Below are positions 4,481-56,718 of a stretch of DNA of 60,562 bases, piece after piece. The first letter of the stretch is position 1; every line of letters begins with the position of its first letter. The notes beneath the pieces are model-generated. The model was not told where the DNA came from. It made no database searches and saw nothing but the letters and a program-made list of their open reading frames with translations. The DNA is from a virus. A program made the position numbers and the translations under genes. Location of the stretch: positions 1 to 60,562 of the IMG/VR virus record IMGVR_UViG_3300042938_001279; one strand, given 5' to 3'.

Positions 4481-5647
4481 ATGACCACACCAGTGTTGAC
4501 CGAGCAGATGCGGCGAAAGAACTGGGCGATGGCGTGTGCCAACGTCGCTGCTTGGATCGTGGCCTTGGCCCGACGGAATGCCATGCTGTGGGGCTCACCG
4601 GGCAAGAGCAAGACTGCCAGCATGCAGGCCTTTGCCAGGGCTCAGGGCATGGAGTTCCTGCTGCTCATCGGCAGCAACATGGCACCGGAGGATGTCGGCG
4701 GAATCCCCCATGTCTTGACCGCTGAGCAGTTCTTCCGTGCCATGCCACCCTTCTGGGCAGAGCGACTGACCAGACCTGGCGTGGTGGTGGGATGCGACGA
4801 GTTTACCTGCACCCCGCCGTCGGTTCGGGCTCCGCTCCAGACCATGTTCTCCGATCGCAAGATCGGGCAGATGGATATTCACCCGGACAATATCCTGCTT
4901 GCCGCTGCCAATCCTCCGAAGTGGGCACCGAATGCAAGCCCGATGGAGAAGGCAATGGCAAACAGGTTTGTTCACTTCGACTTCATCCACAACTACGAGG
5001 CATGGAAGAAGGGCATGTCTTCGGAGCGTGATGAGTGGGGCAAGGTATGGATTCCTACCATGCCTGGTGACTGGCGTCGGTTCGTCCCCAAGTGGGGTGA
5101 CCTCATCAACTCCTACCTCGACAAGAACTCCAATGACCGGGACCAGCCGCCCCCGGAGAGTGACGACGAGAATGCCTACCCCACTCCTCGTAGCTGGCAT
5201 GTCCTTCGGGACTGCCTCGCTGCGGCGGAAGCTGTCGGTGCCCCCGGCATGGTGGAGTCTGCCCTCTGCCACGGTGCGATCGGCAAGGTGGTCGGCGCCA
5301 ACTTCCTCAGGTTCAAGGCGACCCTCGACCTGATGGACCCCGAGGAAGTGCTGTCCGGCAAGAAGCAGTTCAGGTTCGACTCGCTTCGGCCTGACTTGGC
5401 TTCGGCCATGCTGGTCAGTCTGGTCTCGGCACTGAAGTCCAACTTCACGACCGACCGACTGGACGTTGCCTCCGAGGTGTTCTGCATCGACATCGGCAAG
5501 CATGCCGCTGACCTTGCCTTCACCCAGCTTCGGCATCTGGTCAACACCCGACCGGAAGGATCACCGATCCCGCCGAAGTCTCTGAAGATCATCTCGGAGT
5601 TCGGCAAGAACGTGCCGCCCGAGGTTCGCAACCGGGGCAAGTCGTGA
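4481..5647 (+). CDS. MoxR-type AAA+ ATPase
   Basis: A 388-residue AAA+ ATPase. The Walker A region is LWGSPGKSKTA (residues 36-46), so the usual Gly before the catalytic Lys is Ser. Walker B is VVVGCDEF (D106, E107), sensor 1 is in LLAAANPP (N144), and ANRF at 160-163 supplies a likely arginine finger. This layout is that of MoxR/CobS-like ATPases, which remodel proteins with VWA-domain partners. The gene two positions downstream encodes exactly such a partner (6347). GGAG lies upstream of the ATG. Its 3' end overlaps the next gene by four bases. Family call is firm; the substrate is unknown. Confidence 0.85.
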   Translation: MTTPVLTEQMRRKNWAMACANVAAWIVALARRNAMLWGSPGKSKTASMQAFARAQGMEFLLLIGSNMAPEDVGGIPHVLTAEQFFRAMPPFWAERLTRPGVVVGCDEFTCTPPSVRAPLQTMFSDRKIGQMDIHPDNILLAAANPPKWAPNASPMEKAMANRFVHFDFIHNYEAWKKGMSSERDEWGKVWIPTMPGDWRRFVPKWGDLINSYLDKNSNDRDQPPPESDDENAYPTPRSWHVLRDCLAAAEAVGAPGMVESALCHGAIGKVVGANFLRFKATLDLMDPEEVLSGKKQFRFDSLRPDLASAMLVSLVSALKSNFTTDRLDVASEVFCIDIGKHAADLAFTQLRHLVNTRPEGSPIPPKSLKIISEFGKNVPPEVRNRGKS

Positions 5648-6132
5648 GTACCGGCAAGCCCATGAATCTGGATCGGTCCCTGCTTGAGAGCTTGTACCTC
5701 AAGCAGGGACTGACGGTGAAGGTGATAGCTACTCGGCTTGGATGCGGACCGTCCGCAGTCAACCGAGCAATCCTGAAGTTCGGCCTGACCAAAACCCCTA
5801 AGGACAAGACCATGCCACTGTTCATGCAAGAGATCGAGATCGTCAAGACCACGACCATGACCATCGTGTTCGAGGCAGCGGATGCCAAGGCTGCCGCCCT
5901 CATCGTGGAAGCCCTGGAAGACAGTGCAGACGAAGGCTTGTACGAAGAGATCGCTGACGAGGGATCGTCCGATGGGCATTCGACGCACGAGAACTTCAGC
6001 ATGCACGTCCTCTCCTTCCCGGAAGCAGAGACTCGTGGTGCTGCCCCCAAGCCCTGCCCCAAGGGGATTGCGAAGACCTATTCGATGAGCGATTTCGTGA
6101 ACGACTGGGTGACCGACAACGAGGAGGAGTGA
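5644..6132 (+). CDS. HTH-containing hypothetical protein, 162 aa
   Basis: A GTG start overlaps the AAA+ stop (GTGA). Residues about 12-48 (LLESLYLKQGLTVKVIATRL and the following GCGPSAVNRAILKFGL) look like a helix-turn-helix of the short homeodomain-like type. The rest is a beta strand region (TMTIVFEAADAKAAALIVEA) and an acidic C-terminus. It could be a regulator or an adaptor for the ATPase/VWA pair; it sits between them and is translationally coupled to both. Confidence 0.6.
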   Translation: MSTGKPMNLDRSLLESLYLKQGLTVKVIATRLGCGPSAVNRAILKFGLTKTPKDKTMPLFMQEIEIVKTTTMTIVFEAADAKAAALIVEALEDSADEGLYEEIADEGSSDGHSTHENFSMHVLSFPEAETRGAAPKPCPKGIAKTYSMSDFVNDWVTDNEEE

Positions 6133-6350
6133 TGCCAGCCACTGGCAAGAGGGAACTGGACGAGGACTACAAGCCGCTGGCCTTCGAGGAACTGGCAGCG
6201 GTGTTCCGGGTGGCCAAAGCCATGGAGGAGTACGTCGTCTGCTCCAAGAACCCGATGGTCGAGGACAAGAACGGGATGCTTGTGGACTTGGACACAGTCC
6301 ATAAGGCACTGACGAGGATCAAGTTCATCACCCCAGAGGAACAGTCATGA
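6132..6350 (+). CDS. Hypothetical protein, 72 aa
   Basis: A 72-residue helical protein starting MPATGKRELDEDYKPLAFEE, preceded by GAGGAGGAG. It overlaps the upstream stop by one base and the downstream start by four, so it is part of the AAA+/VWA operon. No family recognised. Confidence 0.6.
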   Translation: MPATGKRELDEDYKPLAFEELAAVFRVAKAMEEYVVCSKNPMVEDKNGMLVDLDTVHKALTRIKFITPEEQS

Positions 6351-8086
6351 CCACCGCAACGATTGACCCCGACATTTCCAGGATGTCGATGCGTGAGAGG
6401 GTAGTCCACTACCGGCTCATGACATTCCAGTGGTTCCCATACCTCACGCCATATGTCTACAGCTTGGTGCTGGTCGAGCGTCCCGGCATCGGGACCATGG
6501 CCGTCGATCGGCATGGCCGCATGTATTACGATCCTGCCTTCGTTGTCACTCTGACCTTGGAGCAAGGTGGCTACGTCGTGATGCACGAGACTTGGCATCT
6601 CGTGCTTCGCCACTGTCACCGATCGAAGGACATCATCGGTGAGAACCCGACAGCCCGTCAGCGTGGCAGGCTCAACACTGCCTATGACTGCGTGGTGTGG
6701 GAGTTGATGGAGCCGATTGCCCACCATGCTCCCGTCATCAAGGGCGGCAGCATCGTCACGTTCCCCCTGCTTCAGGCCAAGTACCCGAAGCTCAAGCGGA
6801 ACATGCTGCCGTCGATGATCTACTCCATCATGCTGGAGCAGGACGAGGAAGAGGAGCGGCAGGCTGAGCAGAGGCGTGAGCAGGAACGCAAGGAGCGGGA
6901 GGAGCAGGCCAAGCAACAGCCTCAGCAGGACGAGGACGACGAGACTGACGACGAGGATGCCGAGGACGAGGAGCAGGACGAAGACCCGGAGTTTGACCTG
7001 TCCGATGACGAGGACGAGTATGACCCTGCCGATGACAGCGAAGACTTTGAGGACACCCCGTCCAGCTACGAAGAGGATGGCGACGGCAAGGATGGCGATG
7101 ACGATGGAGATGCCGACGAGGACGAGGATGCCGAGGACTCCGAGGGTGGCGAGGGCGATGACGTTGGTCCGTTTCCCCAGCCCACCAAGCGTGAGAAGAA
7201 GGTCAAGCAGGAGGTCGATGCCGATGCGAGCGACGAGGGTGACAGTGATCAGGATGGCGACGACACCACCAAGGAAGGCGGCGACAGCAGCGGCGAGGCT
7301 GAAGGCGGGGAGGATGACAGGCCCCGAGACAAGTGGGAGGACATGACCCCAGTCGGTGATGGGTCTTGCTCGGACGGCCAGCCTCGTGACTACGAGGAAG
7401 AACCGAATGACAACTGGGACAGCTTCATCGAGGATGAACTGCTCGACCGGGTGGAGAAGGAGATCGAGAACTGCGATCGACAGCATGTCCATGGCATCGG
7501 CCGTGTGCCCGGCTGCCTGAAGGAGTCCATCTCCAGCAAGCTCCGGCCCCAGCCGAACCCTTGGGACAAGCTCCGTGCTGCCTGTGGACTGGCTGCCGCC
7601 AATCCCCGTGGCCGACCGGACTTCACCTTCCAGCGGCCCAACCGCAGGCAGGCTGCCATGCCAAGCGGTCTGATCCTCAAGGGGCAGCGGAAGTATTCAC
7701 CGAAGGCAGTGGTGATCCTTGACTCGTCTGGTTCCATGACCACGCAGTGCAAGGTCAAGTGCCTGGCTGTGGTGGCACAGGGACTCAAGGCAGTGGGTGA
7801 TTTCCGGGTGATCGTCGGTGACACGATGGTCAGGCTGGACGAGCGGTTCACTTCGATGCCTAGCAACTTCGAGTTCAAGGGTGGCGGCGGCACCTGCATG
7901 GTGACGCTCATCAAGTATGCCGAGGAGAAGTACCACCCGGACCTGATCGTGCTGGGTACTGACTGCGGAACGGGATGGCCGGACAAGCCGACCAAGGCTC
8001 AGCTTATCGTGGCTGCCACCCAAGATGGGTACGTTCCCTCTTGGGCAACGAGAGTTCTGATTCCTGACGAAGGGAAGGTGAAGTGA
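6347..8086 (+). CDS. Metallopeptidase-VWA fusion, partner of the AAA+ ATPase
   Basis: A 579-residue protein in three parts. Residues about 15-160 form a putative metallopeptidase domain with HETWH at 80-84 (HExxH) inside VVMHETWHLVLRHCHR. Residues about 163-350 are a very acidic Asp/Glu linker. Residues about 450-575 are a VWA-like domain with a full MIDAS set: DSSGS (D459, S461, S463), a Thr in GGGTC (T516) and an Asp in GTDCG (D539). This matches the DUF2201-type peptidase/VWA architecture known next to MoxR ATPases in bacteria, and the acidic linker recalls CobT. It probably acts with the 4481 ATPase as a metal-dependent complex. What it cleaves or remodels is unknown. Confidence 0.85.
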   Translation: MTTATIDPDISRMSMRERVVHYRLMTFQWFPYLTPYVYSLVLVERPGIGTMAVDRHGRMYYDPAFVVTLTLEQGGYVVMHETWHLVLRHCHRSKDIIGENPTARQRGRLNTAYDCVVWELMEPIAHHAPVIKGGSIVTFPLLQAKYPKLKRNMLPSMIYSIMLEQDEEEERQAEQRREQERKEREEQAKQQPQQDEDDETDDEDAEDEEQDEDPEFDLSDDEDEYDPADDSEDFEDTPSSYEEDGDGKDGDDDGDADEDEDAEDSEGGEGDDVGPFPQPTKREKKVKQEVDADASDEGDSDQDGDDTTKEGGDSSGEAEGGEDDRPRDKWEDMTPVGDGSCSDGQPRDYEEEPNDNWDSFIEDELLDRVEKEIENCDRQHVHGIGRVPGCLKESISSKLRPQPNPWDKLRAACGLAAANPRGRPDFTFQRPNRRQAAMPSGLILKGQRKYSPKAVVILDSSGSMTTQCKVKCLAVVAQGLKAVGDFRVIVGDTMVRLDERFTSMPSNFEFKGGGGTCMVTLIKYAEEKYHPDLIVLGTDCGTGWPDKPTKAQLIVAATQDGYVPSWATRVLIPDEGKVK

Positions 8087-11799: not shown

Positions 11800-12086
11800 A
11801 TGTTCTGGGCTGGTTTTTCACTACCATCGGTGCGGTGGTGACGACGCTGACGCTATTGGGATTGATGAGCATCTTGATTGGATGTGCGTGCGATGCCATC
11901 GCTATCAGGATTCGAGACAAGCGGCATCTCTTCCTCACCCAGTGGGAGAAGAATGCCATGGCCAGTGCTGTCGGAATCTGCCGTCAGGCAGCGGAGGACA
12001 CACGCTCCAACGGCCCGGACTTCGACGGGGTGGAGCACGATCAGGTGGCGACGACGCTTGAAGCTATCCTCGCAAGGAGCAAGTGA
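11796..12086 (+). CDS. Membrane-anchored small protein, 96 aa
   Basis: MNVLGWFFTTIGAVVTTLTL and the following LLGLMSILIG form one long N-terminal hydrophobic helix (about residues 4-30); the remaining two thirds are soluble and helical. AAGGA lies 7 bases upstream of the ATG at 11796. Its stop overlaps the start of the recombinase gene. Confidence 0.55.
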   Translation: MNVLGWFFTTIGAVVTTLTLLGLMSILIGCACDAIAIRIRDKRHLFLTQWEKNAMASAVGICRQAAEDTRSNGPDFDGVEHDQVATTLEAILARSK

Positions 12087-13021
12087 TGCCCAAAGTCTAC
12101 GGATACACGAGAGCCAGCACGGGAAGCCAGTCGCTGACGTTTGACGTTCAGCAGGCTGCGATCAAGCGGTACTTCAAGGAGAAGCTGGAGCCGATTGGGT
12201 ACGAATGGGGTGCCATGTTCGAGGACAAGGCAGTCTCTGGCGGCAAGCCATTCACCGACCGGCCCGAGGGGCGGAAGCTGTGGGTGGTGTGCCAGCCCAA
12301 GGATGCCGTGCTGTGGATGAAGATCGACCGGGCTTTCCGGTCAGTGAAGGACGGCGCCAACGTGCTGTCCCTGTTCCGTGAGCGGGGCGTATCGATCCAC
12401 TCCATCGACATCGGGCTGGACACCAGCACTCCGATGGGTGAGTTCACCATGCACCTGCTCATCCTGCTGGCCCAACTGGAGCGGAGCTGGATCAGCAGCA
12501 GGACCAAGGAAGCGCTCGCTGCCCTGAAGGAAAGGGGGTACAAGAACCTGGGCAACAGCATCCCGGCTGGGTTCAAGCGGGTTGGCGGCACGAGGGACAG
12601 CGCCATCTACCCCGACATGAAGGAGAGAGAGATCATTGTCCTTGCCTATGAAGACTACATGGGAGGCGACAGTCTTGAGACCGTGTCCAACCGTCTCTTC
12701 TTCACTGGCAAGCGACGGCACAACGGCTCGGAGTTCAAGCCTGCGTGGCTGGCCTATGCCTTCCGCTGCTACCGGGCAGGGTGGCCGAAGGGACTGCGGT
12801 ACTTCCAGTTCAAGGCCGAGGTCAAAGAAAAGCTGAAGACCAAGCGACTCTCCAAGCTCAAGCTCCGCGACCTCGTGCAAGAAGAGTTCAGGTCAGGGTG
12901 CGTCGTTGACCGCACGCCTCAGTTTCTCAAGGATAGCGAACAGCCTCTTCTCGGTGTTCCTGAAGTCGAGACCAAACCTCCTGCCGAGGGATCGGATGCT
13001 GGCCCCCTCAAAGACGTATGA
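12086..13021 (+). CDS. Serine recombinase (resolvase/invertase type)
   Basis: A 311-residue serine recombinase. The catalytic motif is in VYGYTRAST near the N-terminus, with the nucleophilic Ser in YTRAS. Later signatures are DRAFRSVKDGANVLSLFRER, STPMGEFTMHLLILLAQLER and the RTKEALAALKERG helix that ends the catalytic domain. The C-terminal part (about 150-230) is a short recombinase/HTH region. The length is between classic resolvases and large integrases. It may resolve phage multimers or integrate the genome; no attachment site was identified. Its last 129 bases overlap the sigma gene tail-to-tail. Confidence 0.85.
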   Translation: MPKVYGYTRASTGSQSLTFDVQQAAIKRYFKEKLEPIGYEWGAMFEDKAVSGGKPFTDRPEGRKLWVVCQPKDAVLWMKIDRAFRSVKDGANVLSLFRERGVSIHSIDIGLDTSTPMGEFTMHLLILLAQLERSWISSRTKEALAALKERGYKNLGNSIPAGFKRVGGTRDSAIYPDMKEREIIVLAYEDYMGGDSLETVSNRLFFTGKRRHNGSEFKPAWLAYAFRCYRAGWPKGLRYFQFKAEVKEKLKTKRLSKLKLRDLVQEEFRSGCVVDRTPQFLKDSEQPLLGVPEVETKPPAEGSDAGPLKDV

Positions 13022-19060: not shown

Positions 19061-19389
19061 CGCCTCAGGATTCGAGACAGGGCTTTCCCCGCGTCCTCGT
19101 ACTTGCTCGACCTCCTCCCCACCCACCGGCTCCCCGTCTCCTCCGGCGACCACGAGTCCTTCGTAAGGTCCCTGAGCCTTTCGATTTCTTCGGGGCCTGG
19201 AACGCTTTCCTCGTCCTTTGCCTTTGACCTCACCACCCCCTCCACTTGAAGCAGGCTGCGGATGAGGCTCCTCGGCCACCGGCTCCACCTCTGTTGGACC
19301 TTGAGCATGCTCATGCCCGACTGGTAGTCCTTGATAATCGCCCGCTTGATCGGCTCCGGGATCATTGCTTGATAGATCGGTTGGATCAT
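19057..19389 (-). CDS. Hypothetical protein, 110 aa (possibly the second half of a frameshifted gene)
   Basis: Starts MIQPIYQAMIPEPIKRAIIK, with GGAG nine bases upstream, and continues through KDYQSGMSMLKVQQRWSRW, PEEIERLRDLTKDSWSPEE and AGKALSRILRR. Codons in this frame end mostly in G or C, as in the genome's real genes, whereas the overlapping frame from 19558 does not here. A helix-turn-helix-like middle suggests a DNA-related role. See the entry for 19400-19558. Confidence 0.55.
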   Translation of the reverse strand: MIQPIYQAMIPEPIKRAIIKDYQSGMSMLKVQQRWSRWPRSLIRSLLQVEGVVRSKAKDEESVPGPEEIERLRDLTKDSWSPEETGSRWVGRRSSKYEDAGKALSRILRR

Positions 19390-19399
19390 CGGGTACATC

Positions 19400-19558
19400 T
19401 CCAAAGAACTCGAACGCCTTAGCCTCCAGTGCTGATCTTGCCAGCCTCAACTCCACGAACAGAACGGGCAGCCACTTCCCGACGAGAAGGGGGACTTCGT
19501 TCCTGTGTGCCCCAAACAGAATCTTCTCAAGGCTGTTGATCTCCTGATCACTCAGCAT
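19400..19558 (-). CDS. N-terminal ORF segment joined to 19057-19389 by a possible +1 shift
   Basis: MLSDQEINSLEKILFGAHRN, then VPLLVGKWLPVLFVELRLAR and ALEAKAFEFF, has genome-like codons up to about 19400. The frame then stays open to 18926 without a stop but loses the G/C third-position pattern, which passes to the +1 frame at TTC TTT GGA GAT. A +1 shift there would give ...AFEFF-EMYPMIQPIY..., one continuous protein. Programmed shift, genuine mutation or an assembly indel are all possible. Confidence 0.4.
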
Positions 19559-44645: not shown

Positions 44646-45185
44646 CTACCTCTTCTTCTTCCAGGAAGGGGTGTGCTTTTCGACCACGAGGGCCCTGGCG
44701 TCGGATTTCTTCAAGTCCGGGTTCTTGGCCATCGCGGCTTTCGTGAGTCGCGCGATTGCCCGATTGCTGAGGGCTTTGGGCTCGGGCTTCGGTCGCTCGC
44801 TGCCCTCATGATTGACTATGCCTTGCACCGTTAGGTTTCTGGCCTTAGCAACTTTCAATACGTCGCTCGTGTCGCTGACCCAGGCCATCGGGTCCATGTG
44901 ACCCCGCTTGTCTGCTATTCCTGAGATGTACTGCTTGCCAGAGACGCTAATCCCGGCAGCCTGGGCCTCGCGGACGATCTTGTTCGCTTGGTGGACCGGC
45001 ATGTCGTTGAGCCAGCTTCCGTCCAGCCTCCCTTCCTGGAACGCGCGGTCCGTTCCCTTGGTGCCAGGGGGCTGCTGGAGAGCGCACATGATGGCAAACG
45101 CCTCCGTCTGGCCATCGAGGATCATGCGTCGATAGTGCAGCTTGACGTGCATCGGCGCGCGGGCAAGCTCGTGCGGGAATATCAC
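44646..45185 (-). CDS. Hypothetical protein after portal, 179 aa
   Basis: MIFPHELARAPMHVKLHYRR begins a helical, strongly basic 179-residue protein ending RALVVEKHTPSWKKKR. DRAFQEGRLDGSWLNDMP and VSGKQYISGIADKRGHMDPM are visible. It overlaps the portal gene by four bases. A DNA-contacting head role is possible from charge, but it is unproven. Confidence 0.6.
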   Translation of the reverse strand: MIFPHELARAPMHVKLHYRRMILDGQTEAFAIMCALQQPPGTKGTDRAFQEGRLDGSWLNDMPVHQANKIVREAQAAGISVSGKQYISGIADKRGHMDPMAWVSDTSDVLKVAKARNLTVQGIVNHEGSERPKPEPKALSNRAIARLTKAAMAKNPDLKKSDARALVVEKHTPSWKKKR

Positions 45186-47320
45186 GGGTTGAGCTCCGGT
45201 GGAATCTGAGGAGAAGGGGGGCCCCCGCCGCCGCCGTCACCGGGCGGAGGTGGACCGCTCGGGCCAGTCGGCGGCAAGCCCGGGTCCCCGGGAGGCAGCG
45301 GCGGGGGAGGAGGTGGAGGTTCCGGCAAGAGGTAGGGCGTCGGGTCAATGTCGAGGCTCTTTGCCCAATCGGATATCAGGGCGTTCCACACCGTCACCAT
45401 GCCGGTGGAGGCGAGCTGCTGTGCGATCGGGCCGATGGTCTGCATGGCCATCTGCATCTGCTCGACCTTCCCGGCCTTGTTGGGCTTGCGGGCGGAGCCT
45501 GCTTCGATGCGATACTGGAACTCTCGGGCAATGGCGTTGATGCCGATCGGGATGATCCTCTTGTCCCAGGCCTCGGCGCCGAGAGGGCCAATGATTGGGG
45601 CCACGTCCTTGCCTTCGAGGAGCCAGCGTGCCGCCAGTGCCTCTCGCCTTGCCAGCATGCTCATGGCGTCTTCTAAGACGTTTGCCATGTCGTCAGGACG
45701 GACGCTGATCTGCTCTGACTTGACCTGGGCTTCAGCAGCACTTCTAAACTGATTTCTGGTCATACCGTAAACTAATTCGGTAAGACCGACCCGTTTGTCA
45801 AACAACTCCATAAGAGCTGTAAGAATCTCCCAGATGTCGCGGTTCACCGACGGCATCGTCAGCACCGAGACAATCTCGTTGATGTTCCGCCCCATGGTCT
45901 CCGAGAGCTCCACCAGCGTGAAGCCGCCCTGCTCGTGCTTGAGAATCTGGTCCTTGAAATCCTGCTCGGCCGCCTTGTTGACGGCGATGACCGTCTTGCA
46001 CGACACCATGATCCTGGAGATCAAGAACGAGATGATCCAGTTGATGCACTTCAGTTCCGGGATGCCTGGCTTGATGTGACTGATCGGCCAGGAGTATCCG
46101 GTCTTGCGGTGGAACTGGAGCGCAACAAACGGCCACCCGTTGTTCTCGGTGTAGAAGGGGATCGGCCACCTGGTTCGACCGAAAAGCGTTTCCGGCATTC
46201 CGGTCTCGGGATCGATCTGCTCAAGAGCCACTGCCTTTGGCGCATTCAACGGAAAATCCACGCCTTCCGCGACCACGATGTAGCAGTTGTCACCCAAGGA
46301 ATCGAATCGATCTCGGAACTCCTTTGGGGACCCCTTGAGGGTGTGGCCGAAGCCGGTCTTGGACCAGATTTTCCAGTAAACCACCAGGTCGTTCGTCTGG
46401 CCGTTCTTCTTCTTGTTTCGATAGCCACGATCACCGATTGCGGCCTCGGATTCGTAGCTCTCGATGTGGCCCTTGAGGTCTTCGTCGTTGAGCTGATACT
46501 TCTTTCTCAGGTATCCAATTGGGTGAACGCACCGTCTTGCGCACCAGAGGATATCTTCCTGCTCGTCAGCGTCAGGGTCCCACTGGATGTTGTCGCTGGA
46601 GTCGAAGAAGCTGCCGATCACGCTGTAGGGCTCACCCTCGTCGCCTTCGAGATCGATGGATTCCGTCCACCACAAGCCGAGTCCGGTGACGATCGCCTCA
46701 TCGACACATTTCCTGGACTGCTCTTTGAGGTTGAGCTCGACGGGCGTGTAGTTCAGGTAGGCCTCCATCAGGCCTGCGACCGTTTTTCGGCTGTCCTCTT
46801 CCGCGGCTATGGCGTTGGACACCGCGATGAACTTCTGCATCGGGTCTTCGACCGGCATCCCCGTGTTCGGGTCGATCTGCGGCATCCCCGTCATGGGGTC
46901 AACCGGCGGCGGCGCCGATGGGTCAATGCCGAGCGTGAGCGGGGAGACCACCGGGAACTTCCGGGGAGTCACCGTGCGAACTGGGTTGCGGTGGTAGATC
47001 ACGCTCGCAAAGAGCTTGACTGCCTCAAACACCTTGTTCACCACGACCTTGAACGCTGGCGTGACGTTCTTGGCGATTGGAGATTGGGCGAGCTTGTCCG
47101 AGTCAGCCCAGAACCAGTCGCCTGTCCCGTCGAAGAAGTTGCGTGCTTCGTGGGCATCGTCGGTGAATATCTGCTTGTGCTCTTGCGACTTCTTGATCTT
47201 TCCCAGCCACGATGACGCGATGGCGCGAAGGGCATCCTCCATGTCTTTCGCAGACGCCTCTCCCTCCATGCCTTCGGCAGGGTTGTCGCTTTGGAGTCGG
47301 AGGTCTTCTTCGAGGCTCAT
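45182..47320 (-). CDS. Portal protein, 712 aa
   Basis: MSLEEDLRLQSDNPAEGMEG begins a large portal-type protein; VFEAVKLFASVIYHRNPVRT and a crown-region helix (KCINWIISFLISRIMVSC, LTELVYGMTRNQFRSAAEAQ) match podovirus-like portals. The C-terminus is an unusual Pro/Gly tract (PPPPPPPLPPGDPGLPPTGP). It lies downstream of terminase, as expected, and forms the DNA entry channel of the capsid. Confidence 0.8.
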   Translation of the reverse strand: MSLEEDLRLQSDNPAEGMEGEASAKDMEDALRAIASSWLGKIKKSQEHKQIFTDDAHEARNFFDGTGDWFWADSDKLAQSPIAKNVTPAFKVVVNKVFEAVKLFASVIYHRNPVRTVTPRKFPVVSPLTLGIDPSAPPPVDPMTGMPQIDPNTGMPVEDPMQKFIAVSNAIAAEEDSRKTVAGLMEAYLNYTPVELNLKEQSRKCVDEAIVTGLGLWWTESIDLEGDEGEPYSVIGSFFDSSDNIQWDPDADEQEDILWCARRCVHPIGYLRKKYQLNDEDLKGHIESYESEAAIGDRGYRNKKKNGQTNDLVVYWKIWSKTGFGHTLKGSPKEFRDRFDSLGDNCYIVVAEGVDFPLNAPKAVALEQIDPETGMPETLFGRTRWPIPFYTENNGWPFVALQFHRKTGYSWPISHIKPGIPELKCINWIISFLISRIMVSCKTVIAVNKAAEQDFKDQILKHEQGGFTLVELSETMGRNINEIVSVLTMPSVNRDIWEILTALMELFDKRVGLTELVYGMTRNQFRSAAEAQVKSEQISVRPDDMANVLEDAMSMLARREALAARWLLEGKDVAPIIGPLGAEAWDKRIIPIGINAIAREFQYRIEAGSARKPNKAGKVEQMQMAMQTIGPIAQQLASTGMVTVWNALISDWAKSLDIDPTPYLLPEPPPPPPPLPPGDPGLPPTGPSGPPPPGDGGGGGPPSPQIPPELNP

Positions 47321-47829: not shown

Positions 47830-49524
47830 TCACGCCACCCAGGACTTGGTATATGAATTAGGAGTCAGGTACACAGACCCGTTCACGTTCTTAGCTTCGT
47901 CTCTCTGCTTCTTCCATGCGTACCCCCACCATTCGTCTTTCTGGACGACCGGGACGTGGTATCGCGGTTCGTAAGCGCAGAGGTAGCGAAGACAGTCCAC
48001 GAGGTGGAAGTCTCCTCGCTTGTTTGGCTCGTCCTTCACGACAGTTTGAGTGCCGACGTGCTCGACCTTTTTCTTGTACCTCTTCATCTCGTTTTCGAGA
48101 TTGGGCATGGCGCCGCGCAGCACTCTAAGCCTGGGGGTTCCGTCTGGTCGAATGTGGAGAGCGGTGCGAACCGAATGCAGTCCGGCCTGGATGTTGTCCA
48201 CGCCGGGGATGAAGCTGGAGCCCGTGGCCTGGGAGCGGATGCCAAGGTTGGCAAGCTGCTCGGTGTACTGGTCCTGCGGGCTTCGGCCAGACCCGATGTC
48301 CGTGAGCCGACCTCCGTGCGAATCGATGAGGAAGGCAAAGAACTGCGTGCCTTGGGTCTTCTTCAGCATTTCCTGAGCGAAGATCACCGCATCGCAATTG
48401 CGGATGTAGAGCTCGTCATAGAGCAGGATCATCGTTCCTTCAGGCGGCACTGCGGCGAACGTGACCGCGGTGACCGAGTGCCCGGGATCGATCGAGGCGT
48501 ACCGGCACCACTCCGCCGGAACCTGGCCTCCGGGAAGGGAGGACTGATCGTACCCGTGGATCGACATGTTGAAGTTCGGGTAGACCTTGATCGAGTCGAT
48601 GTTGAACTCGCCCTCGGATCGTTGACGGAGCACGTTCTCACCGGCTGCCGACCAACGCTCCAGCATCTTCCTCTTCTCGTCCTCGGAGATGTGCGGGTTG
48701 TCCATGAAGCGAAGGATGTATCGCTTGATGTCTTTGTTGCCCGTCTCCAGCGCCTTCTCAGCCCGCTCGTTGAGGCTCATCAGCGCGTCATTCTTCGAGT
48801 GCGGCATGGCGGACCACGCGAAGTTCCCCGCGAGGTCAGGGAGGCGGGCCTGCATCTCAAGGACCCAGTCCTCGTTCTCGATGTCCTCATCGATGTGGAC
48901 TCGATTCGCCTTGAAGCCCTGCTGCGGCTTGGCTTCGCTGGAGAAGAAGTGAATCGTCCAGCCGTTGACCAGCTCGCAGACGTTGAGATAGTTGGCGGAC
49001 TTCAGGAGCCACGACATGCTCTTGATGAGTCGCGGCGGAATCAGGGGCGGGGCTGGCTTCGTTTCCTTCTCCCGACCGGCATCGGCCACGGGGTCAAACG
49101 CCCGCCAGTGTCCGGTCGCCTTGTCCCGGATCATCTTGAATGCGCCTGCCTTGAAGAGCATCGGGACGACTGTCAGGCCGATGTGCTTCCATCCGGCGCC
49201 GATGATGACGAGAACCCCGTTTTCCTTGGGGTACTTTCCAGGGACGGGGTGGGTTCCTGTTACAGCCCATGCGTCCTCGATAAACGTGCAGAGGGACTTG
49301 CCCGATCGATTGCCGCCGACCACGAGGATTTCACTCGCCGGGTCCTGGTGATACTCCCACTGCAACTCCGATGGCCGGTACATCTTGAGGGCTTCCGCCC
49401 GCCGAGAGGAAAGCTCGCTCTGCAAGCTCCTGAGTTCGTCTATCTGAAAGGTTGATAGGGAGCTGACCAAAGGGAGCGGCTGAGGACCCGGCTGGGGCTG
49501 GGGCTGGGATTTGGGAGACGACAT
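47830..49524 (-). CDS. terL: Terminase large subunit, 564 aa
   Basis: The packaging ATPase/nuclease. Walker A is GGNRSGKS (residues 70-77), Walker B is in ANRVHIDEDIE, and RuvC-like nuclease residues are YASIDPGHS, FLIDSHGG and HLVDCLRY. ATG 49524 gives 564 residues; it lies 194 bases inside the preceding gene, which is long but the frame before Walker A is protein-like. It cuts concatemers and pumps DNA into the head through the portal. Confidence 0.9.
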   Translation of the reverse strand: MSSPKSQPQPQPGPQPLPLVSSLSTFQIDELRSLQSELSSRRAEALKMYRPSELQWEYHQDPASEILVVGGNRSGKSLCTFIEDAWAVTGTHPVPGKYPKENGVLVIIGAGWKHIGLTVVPMLFKAGAFKMIRDKATGHWRAFDPVADAGREKETKPAPPLIPPRLIKSMSWLLKSANYLNVCELVNGWTIHFFSSEAKPQQGFKANRVHIDEDIENEDWVLEMQARLPDLAGNFAWSAMPHSKNDALMSLNERAEKALETGNKDIKRYILRFMDNPHISEDEKRKMLERWSAAGENVLRQRSEGEFNIDSIKVYPNFNMSIHGYDQSSLPGGQVPAEWCRYASIDPGHSVTAVTFAAVPPEGTMILLYDELYIRNCDAVIFAQEMLKKTQGTQFFAFLIDSHGGRLTDIGSGRSPQDQYTEQLANLGIRSQATGSSFIPGVDNIQAGLHSVRTALHIRPDGTPRLRVLRGAMPNLENEMKRYKKKVEHVGTQTVVKDEPNKRGDFHLVDCLRYLCAYEPRYHVPVVQKDEWWGYAWKKQRDEAKNVNGSVYLTPNSYTKSWVA

Positions 49525-50029
49525 CGTGGACCCTCTTGGCGTTGGTGAGGTGCAGGATGCTCTCGATTCGCTTGTCGATTTCCGACTGCAACTCCTCTTC
49601 GGAGTAGAGGTCGATCGGCTTGCGGGCACCCCCCTGTTCGGTGTTTTTGATGGTGACCCTGGAGATCATCTCCAGCACACCAGACCTGATCCGTGACCCT
49701 GGCTTGGCGTCCCAGAACTGCTTCATGAGGAGCGCGGAGAACCCGTTCACTCCCCCGAAGTTGTTCATGATCGCTTCGGTGAGCTCAGCGGTGTGCGGGA
49801 TGTTCGTGCCGCCAGAAATCTGCCTGCTCACGAACGACTCGACCGCATTGCTCTCGATCTTCTCCAGGTCCGACTGCCGCTTCCTTTTCTTCTGGCACTT
49901 CCGGCACACGCGACGGAACTTGTGCGTGCAGCCCGGCGCTTTGGCGAAATACTTCTTGGTCAGCGGGTACGGGAACTCGCACGCCTCGCACTGCTGCATC
50001 AAGATGTCATCGCTATCGTCTTCGCTCAC
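49331..50029 (-). CDS. Probable terminase small subunit, 232 aa
   Basis: Placed just upstream of the large subunit. MSEDDSDDILMQQCEACEFP and CRKCQKKRKRQSD form an N-terminal zinc ribbon; then a helical centre (TAELTEAIMNNFGGVNGFSA, LLMKQFWDAKPGSRIRSG) fits a small terminase with an unusual zinc-binding N-terminus. The C-terminal tail overlaps the start of the large subunit. Identity is from position and composition, not from a strong motif. Confidence 0.55.
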   Translation of the reverse strand: MSEDDSDDILMQQCEACEFPYPLTKKYFAKAPGCTHKFRRVCRKCQKKRKRQSDLEKIESNAVESFVSRQISGGTNIPHTAELTEAIMNNFGGVNGFSALLMKQFWDAKPGSRIRSGVLEMISRVTIKNTEQGGARKPIDLYSEEELQSEIDKRIESILHLTNAKRVHDVVSQIPAPAPAGSSAAPFGQLPINLSDRRTQELAERAFLSAGGSPQDVPAIGVAVGVSPGPGE

Positions 50030-51496: not shown

Positions 51497-52612
51497 TCAG
51501 AATGCCAGCGACAGTGACGGGGGATCGGCCTTCATCATCCAGTCGAAGTGATTCAGGTCTCGGTACTTGAACCCATCAACTCCGCCTATGGCGAAGCTGT
51601 CGCCCTGACTGATGATGGCGATGGCATCTTCTCTGCTGATCCAGAAAGAACCGTCTGGTTGGTCAGATGGCCACTTAGGACCTGTTACCCAGGTGCTTCC
51701 CCAAGAGTTCATAATGAGGATGCCGTCCTTCTTGCCATCGTTCTTAGCATACCTCACAGCAATTGCGACCATACAATGAGACCAGTTCCCTCCCCTAGGA
51801 AGGAATCCGTCTTGATCTCTTACCTTGGTCCTGGCAAATCCAATGTTGGAGCACACGGGCACTGGGTACCCAGACTCCAGTGCGGCACACAGGCCCTCCC
51901 ACGTTTCGATCAAGGCCACCTTCTGTGCCTTGTGGAGGTTCGCCTCTTTGGCAAGCTCCGCCGGAACTCCGTTGCGGCCCCAGTCCCTGGAGAGCGGGAT
52001 GGAGTAGGTGGTGAGGTCAAAGTTGCCGTACTTCTGGCGATAGAGGATGCCCCCTCGCCCGTTCTTCAGGCCTGACACCCACCTTGCAGCCGCTGCGCCG
52101 TAGCTCCCGTCGCCTCCCGAGTTCACGGATATTGGAGGCAGTCTGGCGGCCGTTCTCGATCCACCGTAAATTGGCTCAGTTGCCACCATAGGAGGCGGCT
52201 GTGCCAATCGTCCTTGCGTCCAGTCTACGCACTGGCCCACATAAGACCCCATAGCCCAGCCCATGCTTACGCACGTCCCGGCTTCCCCTTGATTGAATGG
52301 GCCGAGGGGCTTCTGGTAGACCGCTTGGTGAGCTTTGATCGCTGCCCGGTACGGGAACGTGTCCACTCCCCGGGCCTTTTGGATCACCTCCTCCCCAGCT
52401 TCCCGAAAGGTCGGCTTGTCCAGCTCACCCAAGAACTGACGCACGCCGTCGGGATCGGGCGTGTAGCCGTAGTTTGAAGTGTTGGTGCGCAGGCGGATAC
52501 TCACGTCCTCAAGAGCCCTGGTCAGGCTCCAGCCGAGGAGTGAGATGGCGATGCCAGCAAAAATCCACTTCCAGTGAAGGGGATTGCTCTGGGGGTCGTT
52601 ACTTGGCGGCAC
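51497..52612 (-). CDS. Membrane-anchored papain-like (C1) cysteine protease, 371 aa
   Basis: GTG 52612 has AAGGAG eight bases upstream and is preferred to an ATG at 52648. An N-terminal membrane helix (WKWIFAGIAISLLGW, residues 14-28) precedes the protease domain. Its papain signatures are oxyanion Gln108 and catalytic Cys114 in NQGEAGTCVSMGWA, His279 in NWSHCMVAIAV, and Asn302 in LIMNSWGSTW. All three catalytic positions are present. A C1 peptidase anchored in the membrane among tiny membrane proteins and a lipoprotein suggests a lysis or envelope role rather than capsid maturation. Confidence 0.85.
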   Translation of the reverse strand: MPPSNDPQSNPLHWKWIFAGIAISLLGWSLTRALEDVSIRLRTNTSNYGYTPDPDGVRQFLGELDKPTFREAGEEVIQKARGVDTFPYRAAIKAHQAVYQKPLGPFNQGEAGTCVSMGWAMGSYVGQCVDWTQGRLAQPPPMVATEPIYGGSRTAARLPPISVNSGGDGSYGAAAARWVSGLKNGRGGILYRQKYGNFDLTTYSIPLSRDWGRNGVPAELAKEANLHKAQKVALIETWEGLCAALESGYPVPVCSNIGFARTKVRDQDGFLPRGGNWSHCMVAIAVRYAKNDGKKDGILIMNSWGSTWVTGPKWPSDQPDGSFWISREDAIAIISQGDSFAIGGVDGFKYRDLNHFDWMMKADPPSLSLAF

Positions 52613-53051
52613 GAGCGCTCTCCTTGGCAACATCGCGGAGGGCGGCAACCCAGGCGTCTCGGTTCACGAGAGGCCCGGGATCGACTCCCAGCTTGGCAGT
52701 CAGATAGTCCCCGACGATTTTCTTGACGTGCGGCTGACGGGTGCCAATCGACTCGCCGTCCATCATGGCAATGCGAACGCGGCTTCGGAGCTCCTCGACC
52801 TGAAGCCCGGTGGTGTACCAGGGGCTCGGACGCTTGCCGTCGTCCGACAGTTCGTGGGCAATCTCCTCCACCATCACGGAGAAGTCGGCGGCATCCTTGG
52901 CCGCAGCCGGACCGATGAACTGTCCCTTGAGGGTCAGGCCGGAGACCGAATCTGGCACCACCTCCGGCCTTGGCGCCGAGTTCTTGCCGAGGTTCCACGC
53001 CAAAAAGGCGAGAACTGCCGCCACGAGATAAGGCCTGAGTTCCTGGTTCAC
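52599..53051 (-). CDS. Membrane-anchored hypothetical protein, 150 aa
   Basis: MNQELRPYLVAAVLAFLAWN gives an N-terminal membrane helix; the rest is soluble and mixed, including PEVVPDSVSGLTLKGQFIGP. ATGA overlap with its upstream neighbour and a 14-base overlap with the protease gene show operon coupling. Function unknown; same cassette. Confidence 0.6.
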   Translation of the reverse strand: MNQELRPYLVAAVLAFLAWNLGKNSAPRPEVVPDSVSGLTLKGQFIGPAAAKDAADFSVMVEEIAHELSDDGKRPSPWYTTGLQVEELRSRVRIAMMDGESIGTRQPHVKKIVGDYLTAKLGVDPGPLVNRDAWVAALRDVAKESARAAK

Positions 53052-53329
53052 TTTTCCTCCAGTGCCGCCTGGATGAGGTCAAACGCTGCCTTGAGCTCCG
53101 GCGTCAGCTTCTCGTCGGCAGCGAGCTTCTTGCGGACAAACGCCAGGTCCGGCTTGGCCAGCACGTTGGCGACCGGAAGGCCAGGGTGAGCGGTGTATGC
53201 AGGCGGAGGCGCTGGTGCCGCGGCAGCCGTGGATGCGAACTGCTGAGGCTTGCTGCCGGGTTCGTTGACTGCCGAGAGGATTTTCCACGCGACGTAGAGG
53301 CCCACGCACACAACAATGGTCTCGGTCAC
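53048..53329 (-). CDS. Small membrane protein, 93 aa (GTG start)
   Basis: GTG 53329 overlaps the upstream TGA as GTGA. VTETIVVCVGLYVAWKILSA is one membrane helix; a Pro/Ala linker and a short charged C-terminal helix (KKLAADEKLTPELKAAFDLI) follow. It probably sits in the inner membrane with the C-terminus soluble. Function unknown. Confidence 0.6.
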   Translation of the reverse strand: MTETIVVCVGLYVAWKILSAVNEPGSKPQQFASTAAAAPAPPPAYTAHPGLPVANVLAKPDLAFVRKKLAADEKLTPELKAAFDLIQAALEEK

Positions 53330-53679
53330 GCTGAGGCCCTCACGTCGGGAAGCGATCTGTCCAGAACGCCGGACAGGATGGCGATGATGAGCGATCGCGC
53401 GACAGGCTTGACGAACGGCCAGACCGTCCACTTGGCAAGAACTGGGACGCACTGGTCGGCCACAGCATCAAAGAGCATGCCGATGGCGATTTCCACGTCC
53501 TTTTTCTTAACCTTGCCTGGGACATCGAGGTCGTCCAAGCCAAGCGCCACCATCTTCAGCAGGGCAAATGCCAGGCTGCCAAAGTCAGCGAAGGAGAGGC
53601 CATCCTTGGCCTTCTCCCTCGCGTCATCGATGAACGCCTGGACCCGTTGCTCAAGCGTGAGAACCGGGCTGTCGCCCAT
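53326..53679 (-). CDS. Hydrophobic hypothetical protein, 117 aa
   Basis: MGDSPVLTLEQRVQAFIDDA, then FADFGSLAFALLKMVALGLD and PVLAKWTVWPFVKPVARSLI, followed by IAILSGVLDRS. Several amphipathic or hydrophobic helices suggest membrane contact. It begins 25 bases after the tRNA and opens the membrane cassette. Holin-like behaviour is possible but not shown. Confidence 0.55.
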   Translation of the reverse strand: MGDSPVLTLEQRVQAFIDDAREKAKDGLSFADFGSLAFALLKMVALGLDDLDVPGKVKKKDVEIAIGMLFDAVADQCVPVLAKWTVWPFVKPVARSLIIAILSGVLDRSLPDVRASA

Positions 53680-53704
53680 CGATTGTCTCCTCGTGTCGCT
53701 TCAG

Positions 53705-53777
53705 TGGGGGCGGCCGGACTCGAACCGGCGGCCTCCTGGTTATGAGCCAGGTGAGCTACCAACTGCTCCACGCCCCG
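53705..53777 (-). tRNA. tRNA-Met(CAT), initiator type
   Basis: A 73-base cloverleaf. The acceptor stem has six paired positions and a C1 x C72 mismatch, as in bacterial initiator tRNAs. D-stem GAGC/GCTC gives an A11:U24 pair, another initiator feature. Anticodon loop CTCATAA (CAT at 53744-53742) sits on a CCTGG/CCAGG stem. The T arm is GCCGG-TTCGAGT-CCGGC. CCA is not encoded. It starts six bases after the stop of the decoration-protein gene, within the head operon. The usual three G:C pairs of initiators are reduced to two plus a T:A. Confidence 0.9.
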
Positions 53778-53783
53778 CCAGAA

Positions 53784-54344
53784 TCAGGTTGCCGTCGGGA
53801 TGTGTGCGCTGTTGGACGTTCCGCCGACGATGATCCGCACCAGGCTGTTCGCTGCGGTGGCGATAGTCTCGCCCAAGCCGAGGCCCGCGATGGCGTTCCC
53901 GGACGTGCCGACTGCCATCTTCGTCCCGACGGTGGGAGTGGCCGCGGTGGCCACCGAAGTCGGGCCCTGGATGACACCCCAGAAAATATCCTTGATCGCA
54001 ACGCTCCCGGACGTGCCGTCGGGAAGCAGCGACGGAAGGTACTCGTCCACCACAGCCACCTGGAAGTCGGTGGTCACAGCGAGCGAGAGGGCGTCAGTGG
54101 TGCGGAACTTCACCAACTGGCCCTTGGTGAGCACGGCGCCCGTGTTGTTCCGCAGTGCGATGCAGCGGACGTACCGCGTCGGGAAGTTGACGATCCCGGC
54201 CGGATAGGTGGCAGGGTTCTGGTCCATGAAGACCTTCTCCATCCCGGCCGTTCCTACTCCGAAGGTCGGGTCGGAGAGGGTGGCGATTCCGCCGCCAAGG
54301 GTCTGGCCTCGCCCGAACTGTGGGTCTGCTGTGGTCGTGGGCAT
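53784..54344 (-). CDS. Capsid decoration-like protein, 186 aa
   Basis: Follows the major capsid gene. MPTTTADPQFGRGQTLGGGI begins a beta-rich protein with RYVRCIALRNNTGAVLTKGQ and VDEYLPSLLPDGTSGSVAIK, and a C-terminal LVRIIVGGTSNSAHIPTAT. DUF2190-type head decoration proteins have this size, position and beta-rich repeats. The tRNA lies six bases beyond its stop. Confidence 0.65.
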   Translation of the reverse strand: MPTTTADPQFGRGQTLGGGIATLSDPTFGVGTAGMEKVFMDQNPATYPAGIVNFPTRYVRCIALRNNTGAVLTKGQLVKFRTTDALSLAVTTDFQVAVVDEYLPSLLPDGTSGSVAIKDIFWGVIQGPTSVATAATPTVGTKMAVGTSGNAIAGLGLGETIATAANSLVRIIVGGTSNSAHIPTAT

Positions 54345-54403: not shown

Positions 54404-55531
54404 TCAGGCAAGGGCCTTGAGAGCGAAGAAGTTCCTGGGGGAGCGAAACCGGAGGTTGGCCAGGGTGCTCACGACGTACTTGTAGCTCTGGTTGCCCACG
54501 TCGTAGACCGGCCCCTCGACCACGAAGAGCGTGTCTTCCATGCACCGGAGTTCGAGGTTGTCGATCGAGAGCCCGTATCCGCACCCGACCGGCACGCCAT
54601 ACTCGGTGGAAATATCCACGCCGTCCTGCTGGAAGACATCCTTGAAGCCATAGCTTCGGAGTCCCTCGTTGCTGTTGGCGAGGATTCTTTCCTTGGAGTC
54701 GAGCTTGGTCTTGTAGTCGATGAACATCCGGCGATCCACCAACACCACGTCGATCTGGCTTTCCTTGGTGTCGTTGCGCTGAGCCTGGTTGATGCCCTCG
54801 CGGACCGCGAGCGTGCAGTTGTCGAACCAGGTGTAGGAGCTGCCACCGTTCTTGAAGGCACTGGACGTGTAGTTGATGATGATCGGGGAGTAGAAGTCAT
54901 ACTCCGGGTCGGCCGTACCGTTCGGCCACGGCACGCCGGGCTGCTGCGAGCCAGCGATGGCCCCGAGTCCCGTGTTGACGGTGGCGTAGGTGTCGCTCGG
55001 CCAGCCGTACATGTCGGCCGCGTTCGCCGTGGACCGCTTGCTGCCGTCGGTGATGTTCACCGTGCCGCTGCTTGCGAGGAACGACTCCATACCGTGGAAC
55101 CGCGTCTCGTTACCAACGGCATCGCCGTCGGTGTAAATCTCCTTCGAGAGATACTGCTTGAGGCTCGTGGTGAGCCGGTTCTGCATCTTCGAGGCGACCT
55201 GCACGAGGGCCGAAGCACCCGTGTTCTCCTTGAGCTCCTTGCGGTAGATCATGTCCGTGGTCTGGTAGCCACGGTACGGGAGCTGCGCGTCCACCCAGAG
55301 GTTCTGGCGAGCGAAGATGCGGGGCGTTTCGCCGTTGTTGCCAGTCACAGGCTGGTTGCGGTACTGCACCTGCCAGTCGATCCCGCGCCCGCCCTGATTC
55401 ATCAGGACGTTGCCGGACCCTTCCAGCAGCGCGAAGATTTTGAACGACCGAAGCATCGCCAGCTCCTCCTGACGGAGGTAGTTGACGGTCGTCGTTCCGA
55501 TTGTCCGTGCCCAGTCTGTGCTCGAAGGCAT
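54404..55531 (-). CDS. Major capsid protein, 375 aa
   Basis: MPSSTDWARTIGTTTVNYLR opens an HK97-like major capsid protein with a long helical N-terminus, GETPRIFARQNLWVDAQLPY, an internal loop (YTSSAFKNGGSSYTWFDNCT) and VVLVDRRMFIDYKTKLDSKE. It is preceded by the scaffold gene and followed by the decoration gene, the usual order. Confidence 0.75.
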   Translation of the reverse strand: MPSSTDWARTIGTTTVNYLRQEELAMLRSFKIFALLEGSGNVLMNQGGRGIDWQVQYRNQPVTGNNGETPRIFARQNLWVDAQLPYRGYQTTDMIYRKELKENTGASALVQVASKMQNRLTTSLKQYLSKEIYTDGDAVGNETRFHGMESFLASSGTVNITDGSKRSTANAADMYGWPSDTYATVNTGLGAIAGSQQPGVPWPNGTADPEYDFYSPIIINYTSSAFKNGGSSYTWFDNCTLAVREGINQAQRNDTKESQIDVVLVDRRMFIDYKTKLDSKERILANSNEGLRSYGFKDVFQQDGVDISTEYGVPVGCGYGLSIDNLELRCMEDTLFVVEGPVYDVGNQSYKYVVSTLANLRFRSPRNFFALKALA

Positions 55532-55542
55532 GCTTCAACCTT

Positions 55543-56718
55543 TCAAAGGAGTCCGCGCTTCGCTGCCGTGTCGAGGAGCATCTGCTCGTAGCTCGCTGGC
55601 CTTGAAGCGCGTGGGTCGTTGTTGGTGGTTCCCGCCGATCGATTCGGAGACCTGGATGCTTCTCGGCGGAGGAAGTCCATGTTGGCTTGTGCTCGGGCTG
55701 CTCTTGCTGCGTCCTGGCTGGACGTGTCTTGCTGGGGCGGAACAGGGGGAGCAGGGGGGGCGAACTGTTGAGCTTGCTGTGGCTGCCGAAAGAACTCGGG
55801 TTGCTGGTCAACTTCCATTCTTGCCGCGTAGTCGCGGAGCAGAAGGTCGTGTTCCACCTTGTCTCTTGCGTACTGCCATCTCTGCTGAGGGTTTGTGATC
55901 CCCATGGATCGCCCTTGCTCGACGTATTTATGTACGGCAATAGCTTCCGTTGTCACACTTCCGTCTTCGTTGAAGAGCCAGTCCGCGTTTTCCGAACGGA
56001 TTTGGTCCACGAACGACTCGTTGTCGCGCTGCGTCATCGTCTGCTGGACGATCTCTTGGGCGATCTGCTTGGCCCGCCCTTCGACCATGGGACCCAGGGC
56101 TGCCTCCGGGTCTTCGAGGAACTTCCTGGCGAAGTCCTGTTTGAATGCCATCTGCTCTTCGAGCGACTGCCGGGCGTCGATCGGGGCGTCCGGGGAGATG
56201 ACCTCGCGTCCCGTCTCGGGATCGCGGACGAGGAACCGCTTGTGCGAGTCGCGGACTTGCGGGGGATTCCACCAGGGCTTCTTCTCCTCGGCGGGCTTGG
56301 CCCCGGGGTGCTGCGCGGCGGCGGCGGGCGGCGCCATGCGTGCCTTCTGCCACTCATCGAACTGCGGTTTGTCGGCCAGGTACTTCTGGATGTTTGGGTA
56401 GAGCTGCTGGAACTGCGTGAGCTGCTGCGATGCGGCACGCTCCCTGACCGTCGTCTGGTAGAGGGCGTGAGCGATCTGCTGCTCCGAGAGGTCCCTGAAC
56501 TGCGGCAGTTGCCGGAAGTTGTTCATCACCTCCCAGTTCGACCGCGCGGCTGCGGCGGCTTGCGGCGGCTGGCCCGGGGCGGCCTGCTGCGGAGCCCGCT
56601 GCTGAGGGGCAGAAGACTGGGGAGTTGCACCTGAATCAGATGACCCGGAGTCCTGCGATTCCGAGACATCGACATCCTGATCCACAACGTCTGCCGAACC
56701 GTCAGTGGGCATTGACAT
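55543..56718 (-). CDS. Scaffolding protein, 391 aa
   Basis: Highly charged, Gln/Pro/Ala-rich helical protein beginning MSMPTDGSADVVDQDVDVSE, with PQSSAPQQRAPQQAAPGQPP near the N-terminus and a long helical centre (KQDFARKFLEDPEAALGPMV). It ends in a basic tail with RREASRSPNRSAGTTNND. Position directly before the capsid gene and composition indicate scaffold. AAGGAG precedes the ATG. Confidence 0.75.
   Translation of the reverse strand: MSMPTDGSADVVDQDVDVSESQDSGSSDSGATPQSSAPQQRAPQQAAPGQPPQAAAAARSNWEVMNNFRQLPQFRDLSEQQIAHALYQTTVRERAASQQLTQFQQLYPNIQKYLADKPQFDEWQKARMAPPAAAAQHPGAKPAEEKKPWWNPPQVRDSHKRFLVRDPETGREVISPDAPIDARQSLEEQMAFKQDFARKFLEDPEAALGPMVEGRAKQIAQEIVQQTMTQRDNESFVDQIRSENADWLFNEDGSVTTEAIAVHKYVEQGRSMGITNPQQRWQYARDKVEHDLLLRDYAARMEVDQQPEFFRQPQQAQQFAPPAPPVPPQQDTSSQDAARAARAQANMDFLRREASRSPNRSAGTTNNDPRASRPASYEQMLLDTAAKRGLL

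Follow-up and report, generated by a model that had tools for sequence, protein, structure and literature searches.

Why phages carry tRNAs is a long-standing question to which codon usage is the usual answer, but an initiator tRNA cannot be accounted for by codon usage. Phage-encoded initiator tRNAs are already known. For example, Caulobacter phage CcrPW carries an initiator tRNA annotated as tRNA-fMet, lone fMet tRNAs have been published for phiLM21-like prophages of Sinorhizobium (PMC12429752), and an initiation role has been proposed for the fMet tRNA of the Erwinia jumbo phage pEa_SNUABM_47 (PMC9686651). Additionally, 271 phage records in INPHARED match an initiator consensus, amongst them those of mycobacteriophages, Cellulophaga phage phi4:1, Lak phages and Pseudomonas phage D3. 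The original prediction for the locus described here held that phages usually carry elongator tRNAs; given these INPHARED records, CcrPW and the two published cases, this is only partly right, as phage tRNAs are not essentially elongators only. Phages have also been said to generally avoid tRNA-fMet where VapC targets it (PMC10264068), whereas many phages in the present data do encode it.

The tRNA analyzed here adds another example. It lies in a 60,562-bp IMG/VR virus record (the whole stretch of DNA analyzed, hereafter the window) and, as in CcrPW, pEa_SNUABM_47 and the phiLM21-like prophages, it is an initiator-class tRNA-Met in a phage, which is sometimes the sole tRNA. Unlike those tRNAs, it is located within the head operon, in an uncultured clade of probable planctomycete phages, and has a G3:C70 pair and a UGG:CCA anticodon stem at positions 29-31. 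As in the window, a lone, unannotated initiator-type tRNA is found near terminase or portal genes in Erythrobacter phage R6L, Xanthomonas phage DoCa5 and Nocardia phage P3.1, but these are unrelated phages, and their tRNA stands beside terminase or portal genes rather than after a decoration gene.

ARAGORN and Rfam found a single tRNA in the whole window, at 53705-53777 on the minus strand (RF00005, 65.8 bits, E 4e-12); a weak initiator-model match of 26 bits at 19366-19443 (plus strand) was dropped as not tRNA-like by eye. The tRNA is complete and reads CGGGGCG T G GAGC AGTTGGTA GCTC A CCTGG CTCATAA through the anticodon loop and CCAGG AGGCC GCCGG TTCGAGT CCGGC CGCCCCC A thereafter, with discriminator A73 and no encoded CCA (CTG comes next). 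Direct reading bore out the hallmarks named in the original prediction, i.e., the unpaired C1xC72 of the acceptor stem CGGGGCG/CGCCCCC, A11:U24 in the D-stem GAGC/GCTC, and the CAU anticodon on an ordinary CTCATAA loop with U33. Shifting the acceptor stem so as to pair position 1 was ruled out, as every register tried yielded at best six pairs along with the C1xC72 mismatch. Within the anticodon arm, CCTGG-CTCATAA-CCAGG, the three G-C pairs that initiators usually have are represented by two (G30:C40 and G31:C39), and the third, G29:C41, is replaced by U29:A41. Further deviations are G3:C70, where all 75 cellular training initiators have C3:G70 (G2:C71 is present), A26, and a short D-loop of 8 nt. 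The U29:A41 and G3:C70 pairs and the 8-nt D-loop had gone unmentioned in the original prediction, as had the strand.

The assignment to the initiator class was examined with two covariance models, one built from 12 cellular initiators and one from 12 cellular elongator-type CAT tRNAs. The window tRNA scored 85.2 bits with the initiator model and 69.1 bits with the elongator model (16 bits apart), so that this check, which had been proposed with the original prediction, did not return an elongator. As controls, a true planctomycete initiator scored 93.4 and 70.3 bits, and the true elongator of the same genome 51.0 and 79.3 bits, respectively. A position-wise log-odds score trained on 75 initiators and 34 elongators gave +17.4 for the window tRNA; in leave-one-out scoring, initiators ranged from +56 to +82 and elongators from -162 to -43. 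The C1xC72 mismatch is itself known from at least 119 cellular initiator loci. An elongator tRNA-Met or a tRNA-Ile2 is excluded by the lack of a paired 1:72 and of Y11:R24, together with both types of score; the tRNA is thus of the initiator class, as predicted, but deviant in detail.

The details may matter for function. The 1x72 mismatch, G2:C71, C3:G70 and A11:U24 help formylation, and the three G:C pairs of initiators help the 30S-to-70S step (PMC7949028). G3:C70 and U29:A41 depart from these features, and the activity of the window tRNA may therefore be altered, perhaps reduced. In Planctomycetota, G29:C41 is usual rather than strictly defining, as about one fifth of the listed cellular initiators have A29:U41. 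Planctomycetota initiators share with the window tRNA the 1x72 mismatch, A11:U24 and the CTCATAA loop, and some have the same 8-nt D-loop, AGTTGGTA, or A29:U41. They differ from it in the acceptor stem, the CGGGGCG pattern having no exact cellular match in the GTDB collection, and U29:A41 was confined, among the planctomycete matches listed, to a prophage copy.

The position within the head operon, including the six bases between the stop codon of the decoration gene and the 5' end of the tRNA, was confirmed by open reading frames, PHROG and structure matches. That preceding gene (53784-54344, minus strand) encodes a 186-aa protein resembling capsid decoration or head-fibre proteins. It had no Pfam or PHROG match, and its low-confidence structure model (pLDDT 61) gave the phi29 gp8.5 head-fibre base as the best Foldseek match (E 2e-4), followed by weaker matches to TW1 and Pam3 capsid or capsid-stabilizing proteins and to DUF2190 phage proteins. 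These model-based matches, and the adjoining gene for the 375-aa major capsid protein (54404-55531, minus strand; PHROG 9953 major head protein, 5e-5; a family of 408 loci), suggest that it is plausibly a decoration protein. Further upstream lies a gene for a 391-aa protein (55543-56718, minus strand) that in this family always precedes the capsid gene. On the other side of the tRNA, a 25-nt leader (53680-53704, minus strand) with a GAGGAG Shine-Dalgarno sequence at 53692-53687 separates its 3' end from the ATG (53679) of a gene for a 117-aa protein that is conserved in the clade (53326-53679, minus strand).

The same strand carries the genes for the terminase large subunit (47830-49629), recognized through its relatives and through tblastn, which gave distant matches to large terminases annotated as such, and for the portal protein (45182-47320), which is 31% identical to a planctomycete-prophage protein matching a PHROG portal family. 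Pfam and PHROGs otherwise gave almost no matches for the structural proteins of the window. When the head region was searched for promoters and terminators, nothing rose above chance, and no such minus-strand site was found near the tRNA. The suggestion that an initiator copy would serve GTG, TTG and CTG starts is weak, as the phage tRNA has the CAU anticodon of any bacterial initiator; start codons in the window were read by the longest-ORF rule alone.

Conservation of the tRNA was evaluated in two close relatives. In L002, whose capsid protein is 98% identical to that of the window, the tRNA is identical (73/73) and occupies the same place; in L003 (90% capsid identity) it is identical at 67 of 73 positions, again in the same place (L003:6598-6670). 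All three clade members keep the same spacing, with 6 nt between the stop codon and the tRNA and 25 nt between the tRNA and the following ATG. Four-fold sites of the surrounding genes are only 57% (decoration gene), 66% (capsid gene) and 76% (downstream gene) identical between window and relative, so the tRNA is not there by chance, and its 67/73 identity is consistent with purifying selection.

All six differences between the window and L003 tRNAs, at positions 26, 28, 29, 33, 41 and 42, fall in the anticodon arm. The 28:42 and 29:41 pairs changed on both sides with pairing preserved, i.e., by compensatory change, so that L003 has G29:C41 in place of the U29:A41 of the window, and position 33 is U in the window and C in L003 (loop CCCATAA). 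Counted as four independent events, their placement within the 18 anticodon-arm positions has p of about 0.004 under a uniform model, although real constraint is non-uniform, and the clustering, coming from one pair of sequences, is suggestive only.

The window phage is a member of a large uncultured family, and most of that family lacks the tRNA, which is thus dispensable. Terminase relatives at 39-72% identity have no tRNA near their head genes. A capsid-profile scan gave 408 loci, and among the best 80 of these, in which tRNAs were assessed, a convincing tRNA was found only in the window clade and in L293; likewise, 26 whole records from the family gave strong tRNA matches only in these. 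L293 (66% capsid identity) has its own initiator-type tRNA (76.7 bits with the initiator model and 57.7 with the elongator model), located upstream of the head genes, unlike that of the window. The head-operon tRNA is therefore confined to the close clade of the window, and two other family members, L293 and a prophage in planctomycete genome G580, carry an initiator-type tRNA elsewhere. In two further relatives, G802 and G805, the 3' half of an elongator-type CAT tRNA is present (L341:1501-1573 and L342:1494-1563), overlapping the start of an ORF judged by eye to be tyrosine-recombinase-like. These halves are probably attP cores, which suggests that temperate members of the family exist.

Cultured relatives gave only local terminase matches of 25-28% identity by tblastn. 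Host assignment by tRNA identity was abandoned, as the acceptor pattern had no cellular match, and a terminase profile was used instead. The profile matched one of 392 planctomycete genomes (G580, E 1e-114) and none of 246 actinobacterial or 150 gemmatimonadotal genomes. The G580 match lies in a prophage that encodes an integrase alongside relatives of the capsid, portal and terminase proteins of the window; its initiator-type tRNA (L228:11631-11704) is distinct from the initiator found at another place on that contig. G109 holds an unrelated planctomycete prophage, and here too a second initiator-type tRNA is present (L219:9670-9742), its 27-43 arm identical to that of the window. The terminase-profile match and these prophage tRNAs make Planctomycetota the likely host phylum, though the evidence is modest. 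Both prophages thus carry a divergent second initiator besides that elsewhere in the genome. The G580 prophage also has a GroES-like co-chaperonin gene (PHROG 3188; L228:10956-11414, minus strand). Elsewhere, a 10-Mb planctomycete assembly contains 15 tRNA genes arrayed over 2 kb (L226, G205:C138:5000-7000). Many of them have a GGTGC T-loop, an initiator-type tRNA-Met is included, and the array may be a tRNA-array element or a jumbo phage.

The C33 seen in L003 recurs in other viruses. A fixed initiator pattern with either U33 or C33 was compared across viral and cellular collections, and the C33 form (loop CCCATAA) was found in 76 viral contigs (L351-L425), of which 68 matches were verified as full tRNAs (54 distinct; the sole tRNA of the locus in 46/68). 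The same form was absent from all 590 cellular genomes of two phyla (0/294 planctomycete, 0/296 actinobacterial). The U33 pattern occurred in 153/294 and 168/198 cellular genomes. At least 119 viral stretches have the U33 pattern, a lower bound that may include proviruses with host flanks, so the viral C33 fraction is not a true frequency. Pseudomonas phage D3 (L163) likewise carries a C33 initiator-type tRNA, and several viral C33 loci adjoin integrase genes.

Among 36 distinct lone C33 loci, six have a terminase large subunit gene as the closest ORF (120 aa or longer) to one side, and another four have a portal, capsid or neck gene there. Six of 36 exceeds the roughly 2 in 60 expected (binomial p of about 0.001, a rough value with gene numbers assumed). 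Lone C33 loci by packaging or head genes are L355, L364, L379, L392, L394, L418, L396, L367, L423 and L421, and L166, L170 and L172 also have a lone initiator-type tRNA immediately beside, or at most a few genes away from, genes for terminase, portal, capsid or neck proteins. Such lone tRNA genes recur in many unrelated phages, and several are unannotated.

U33 forms the turn that tRNAs need in the A site of the ribosome, a site that initiators bypass. Eukaryotic initiators have C33 (PMC9023262). A C33 is thus suited to a tRNA that serves in initiation alone. The eukaryotic cytoplasmic initiator shares this base with L003 and with the 68 verified viral tRNAs, but the latter are bacterial-type tRNAs in viruses of prokaryotes, and the likeness is apparently convergent. 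It is conceivable, though we hold it only tentatively, that viral initiators are a distinct class that recurrently swaps the near-universal U33 for C33, often lone beside terminase, portal or capsid genes and uncuttable by host toxins that target the anticodon, with the window carrying the U33 allele and its close relative the C33 allele.

We see an even chance that the window tRNA is a genuine phage-encoded initiator that supplies late infection and is kept because the host pool is limiting or attacked. Its expression, processing, charging, use and benefit are read here from sequence. It would be transcribed within the head-gene mRNA and released from the late transcript by the RNase P and 3'-end processing enzymes of the host. 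After addition of CCA, the host would charge it with methionine and formylate it, and it would then supply translation initiation late in infection. The most likely reason for keeping a copy of its own would be a host initiator pool that turns limiting or comes under attack in the course of infection. Change in the anticodon arm with pairing preserved, and loss of U33, would be expected under escape from initiator-targeting enzymes such as VapC, which cuts initiator tRNA at A38/C39 (PMC4105405). We favour escape, given that the changes occupy the arm where VapC cuts and that other phage tRNAs show similar changes: those of cluster C mycobacteriophages differ from the host in the anticodon arm, as the phage tRNA does here, and anticodon-loop changes in phage tRNAs have been read as nuclease escape (PMC10264068). 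This argument draws on L003 and on the whole arm, as the loop of the window tRNA itself is the ordinary one. The explanation is further supported by recurrence, in that L293, the G580 and G109 prophages and the 76 C33 viral contigs have initiator tRNAs of their own.

Three other explanations were weighed against this supply of a phage-owned initiator. An extra copy might simply lift initiation capacity during heavy capsid synthesis, with no role in defence, as originally proposed. The head-operon location would suit such a role, as would the effect of initiator abundance on the rate and fidelity of initiation (PMC7949028) and the lone initiator-type tRNAs beside TerL, portal or capsid genes of unrelated phages; yet a dosage effect predicts a host-like sequence, whereas the anticodon arm differs between close relatives, position 33 flips, and most relatives manage without the tRNA. 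We therefore consider it rather unlikely. Less probable again is that the tRNA acts mainly as an RNase P site that ends the capsid-decoration mRNA 6 nt past its stop codon and separates the downstream genes. The tight packing (6 and 25 nt) conserved in three clade members and the lack of a promoter-like or terminator-like minus-strand site nearby agree with it, but any tRNA would serve this purpose, and yet the conserved class is always initiator, with the 1x72 mismatch and A11:U24 kept. That the tRNA is a passenger marking a site of recombination or attachment that came from a host initiator gene appears the most improbable of the three, despite the attP-like elongator-type halves at the recombinase-like ORF of G802 and G805 and the viral C33 loci next to integrase genes, as the window tRNA is complete, shows compensatory change, and belongs to the late head operon, a long way from the single recombinase identified in the window (a Resolvase domain at 12083-13021). 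An attP-type remnant, i.e., a 3' half by an integrase, was ruled out, since the window tRNA is entire and is flanked by capsid genes and by the late genes downstream, in contrast to L341 and L342.

As codon usage cannot explain an initiator, lone initiators in capsid and packaging operons offer a clean test of capacity, escape and mRNA processing. The window (U33) and L003 (C33) alleles, identical outside the anticodon arm, form a pair suited to comparison against VapC-type toxins.

Two other features of the window were observed. The head operon encodes a 383-aa protein (51497-52648, minus strand) with no Pfam or PHROG match, in which the segments GTCVSMGWAMGSYVGQC and SHCMVAIAV resemble a papain-type active site by eye. 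At 4481-8086 (plus strand), a MoxR-like AAA ATPase (weak AAA_3 match) is followed by a DUF2201 metallopeptidase/VWA protein, a pair that is unusual for a 60-kb phage.
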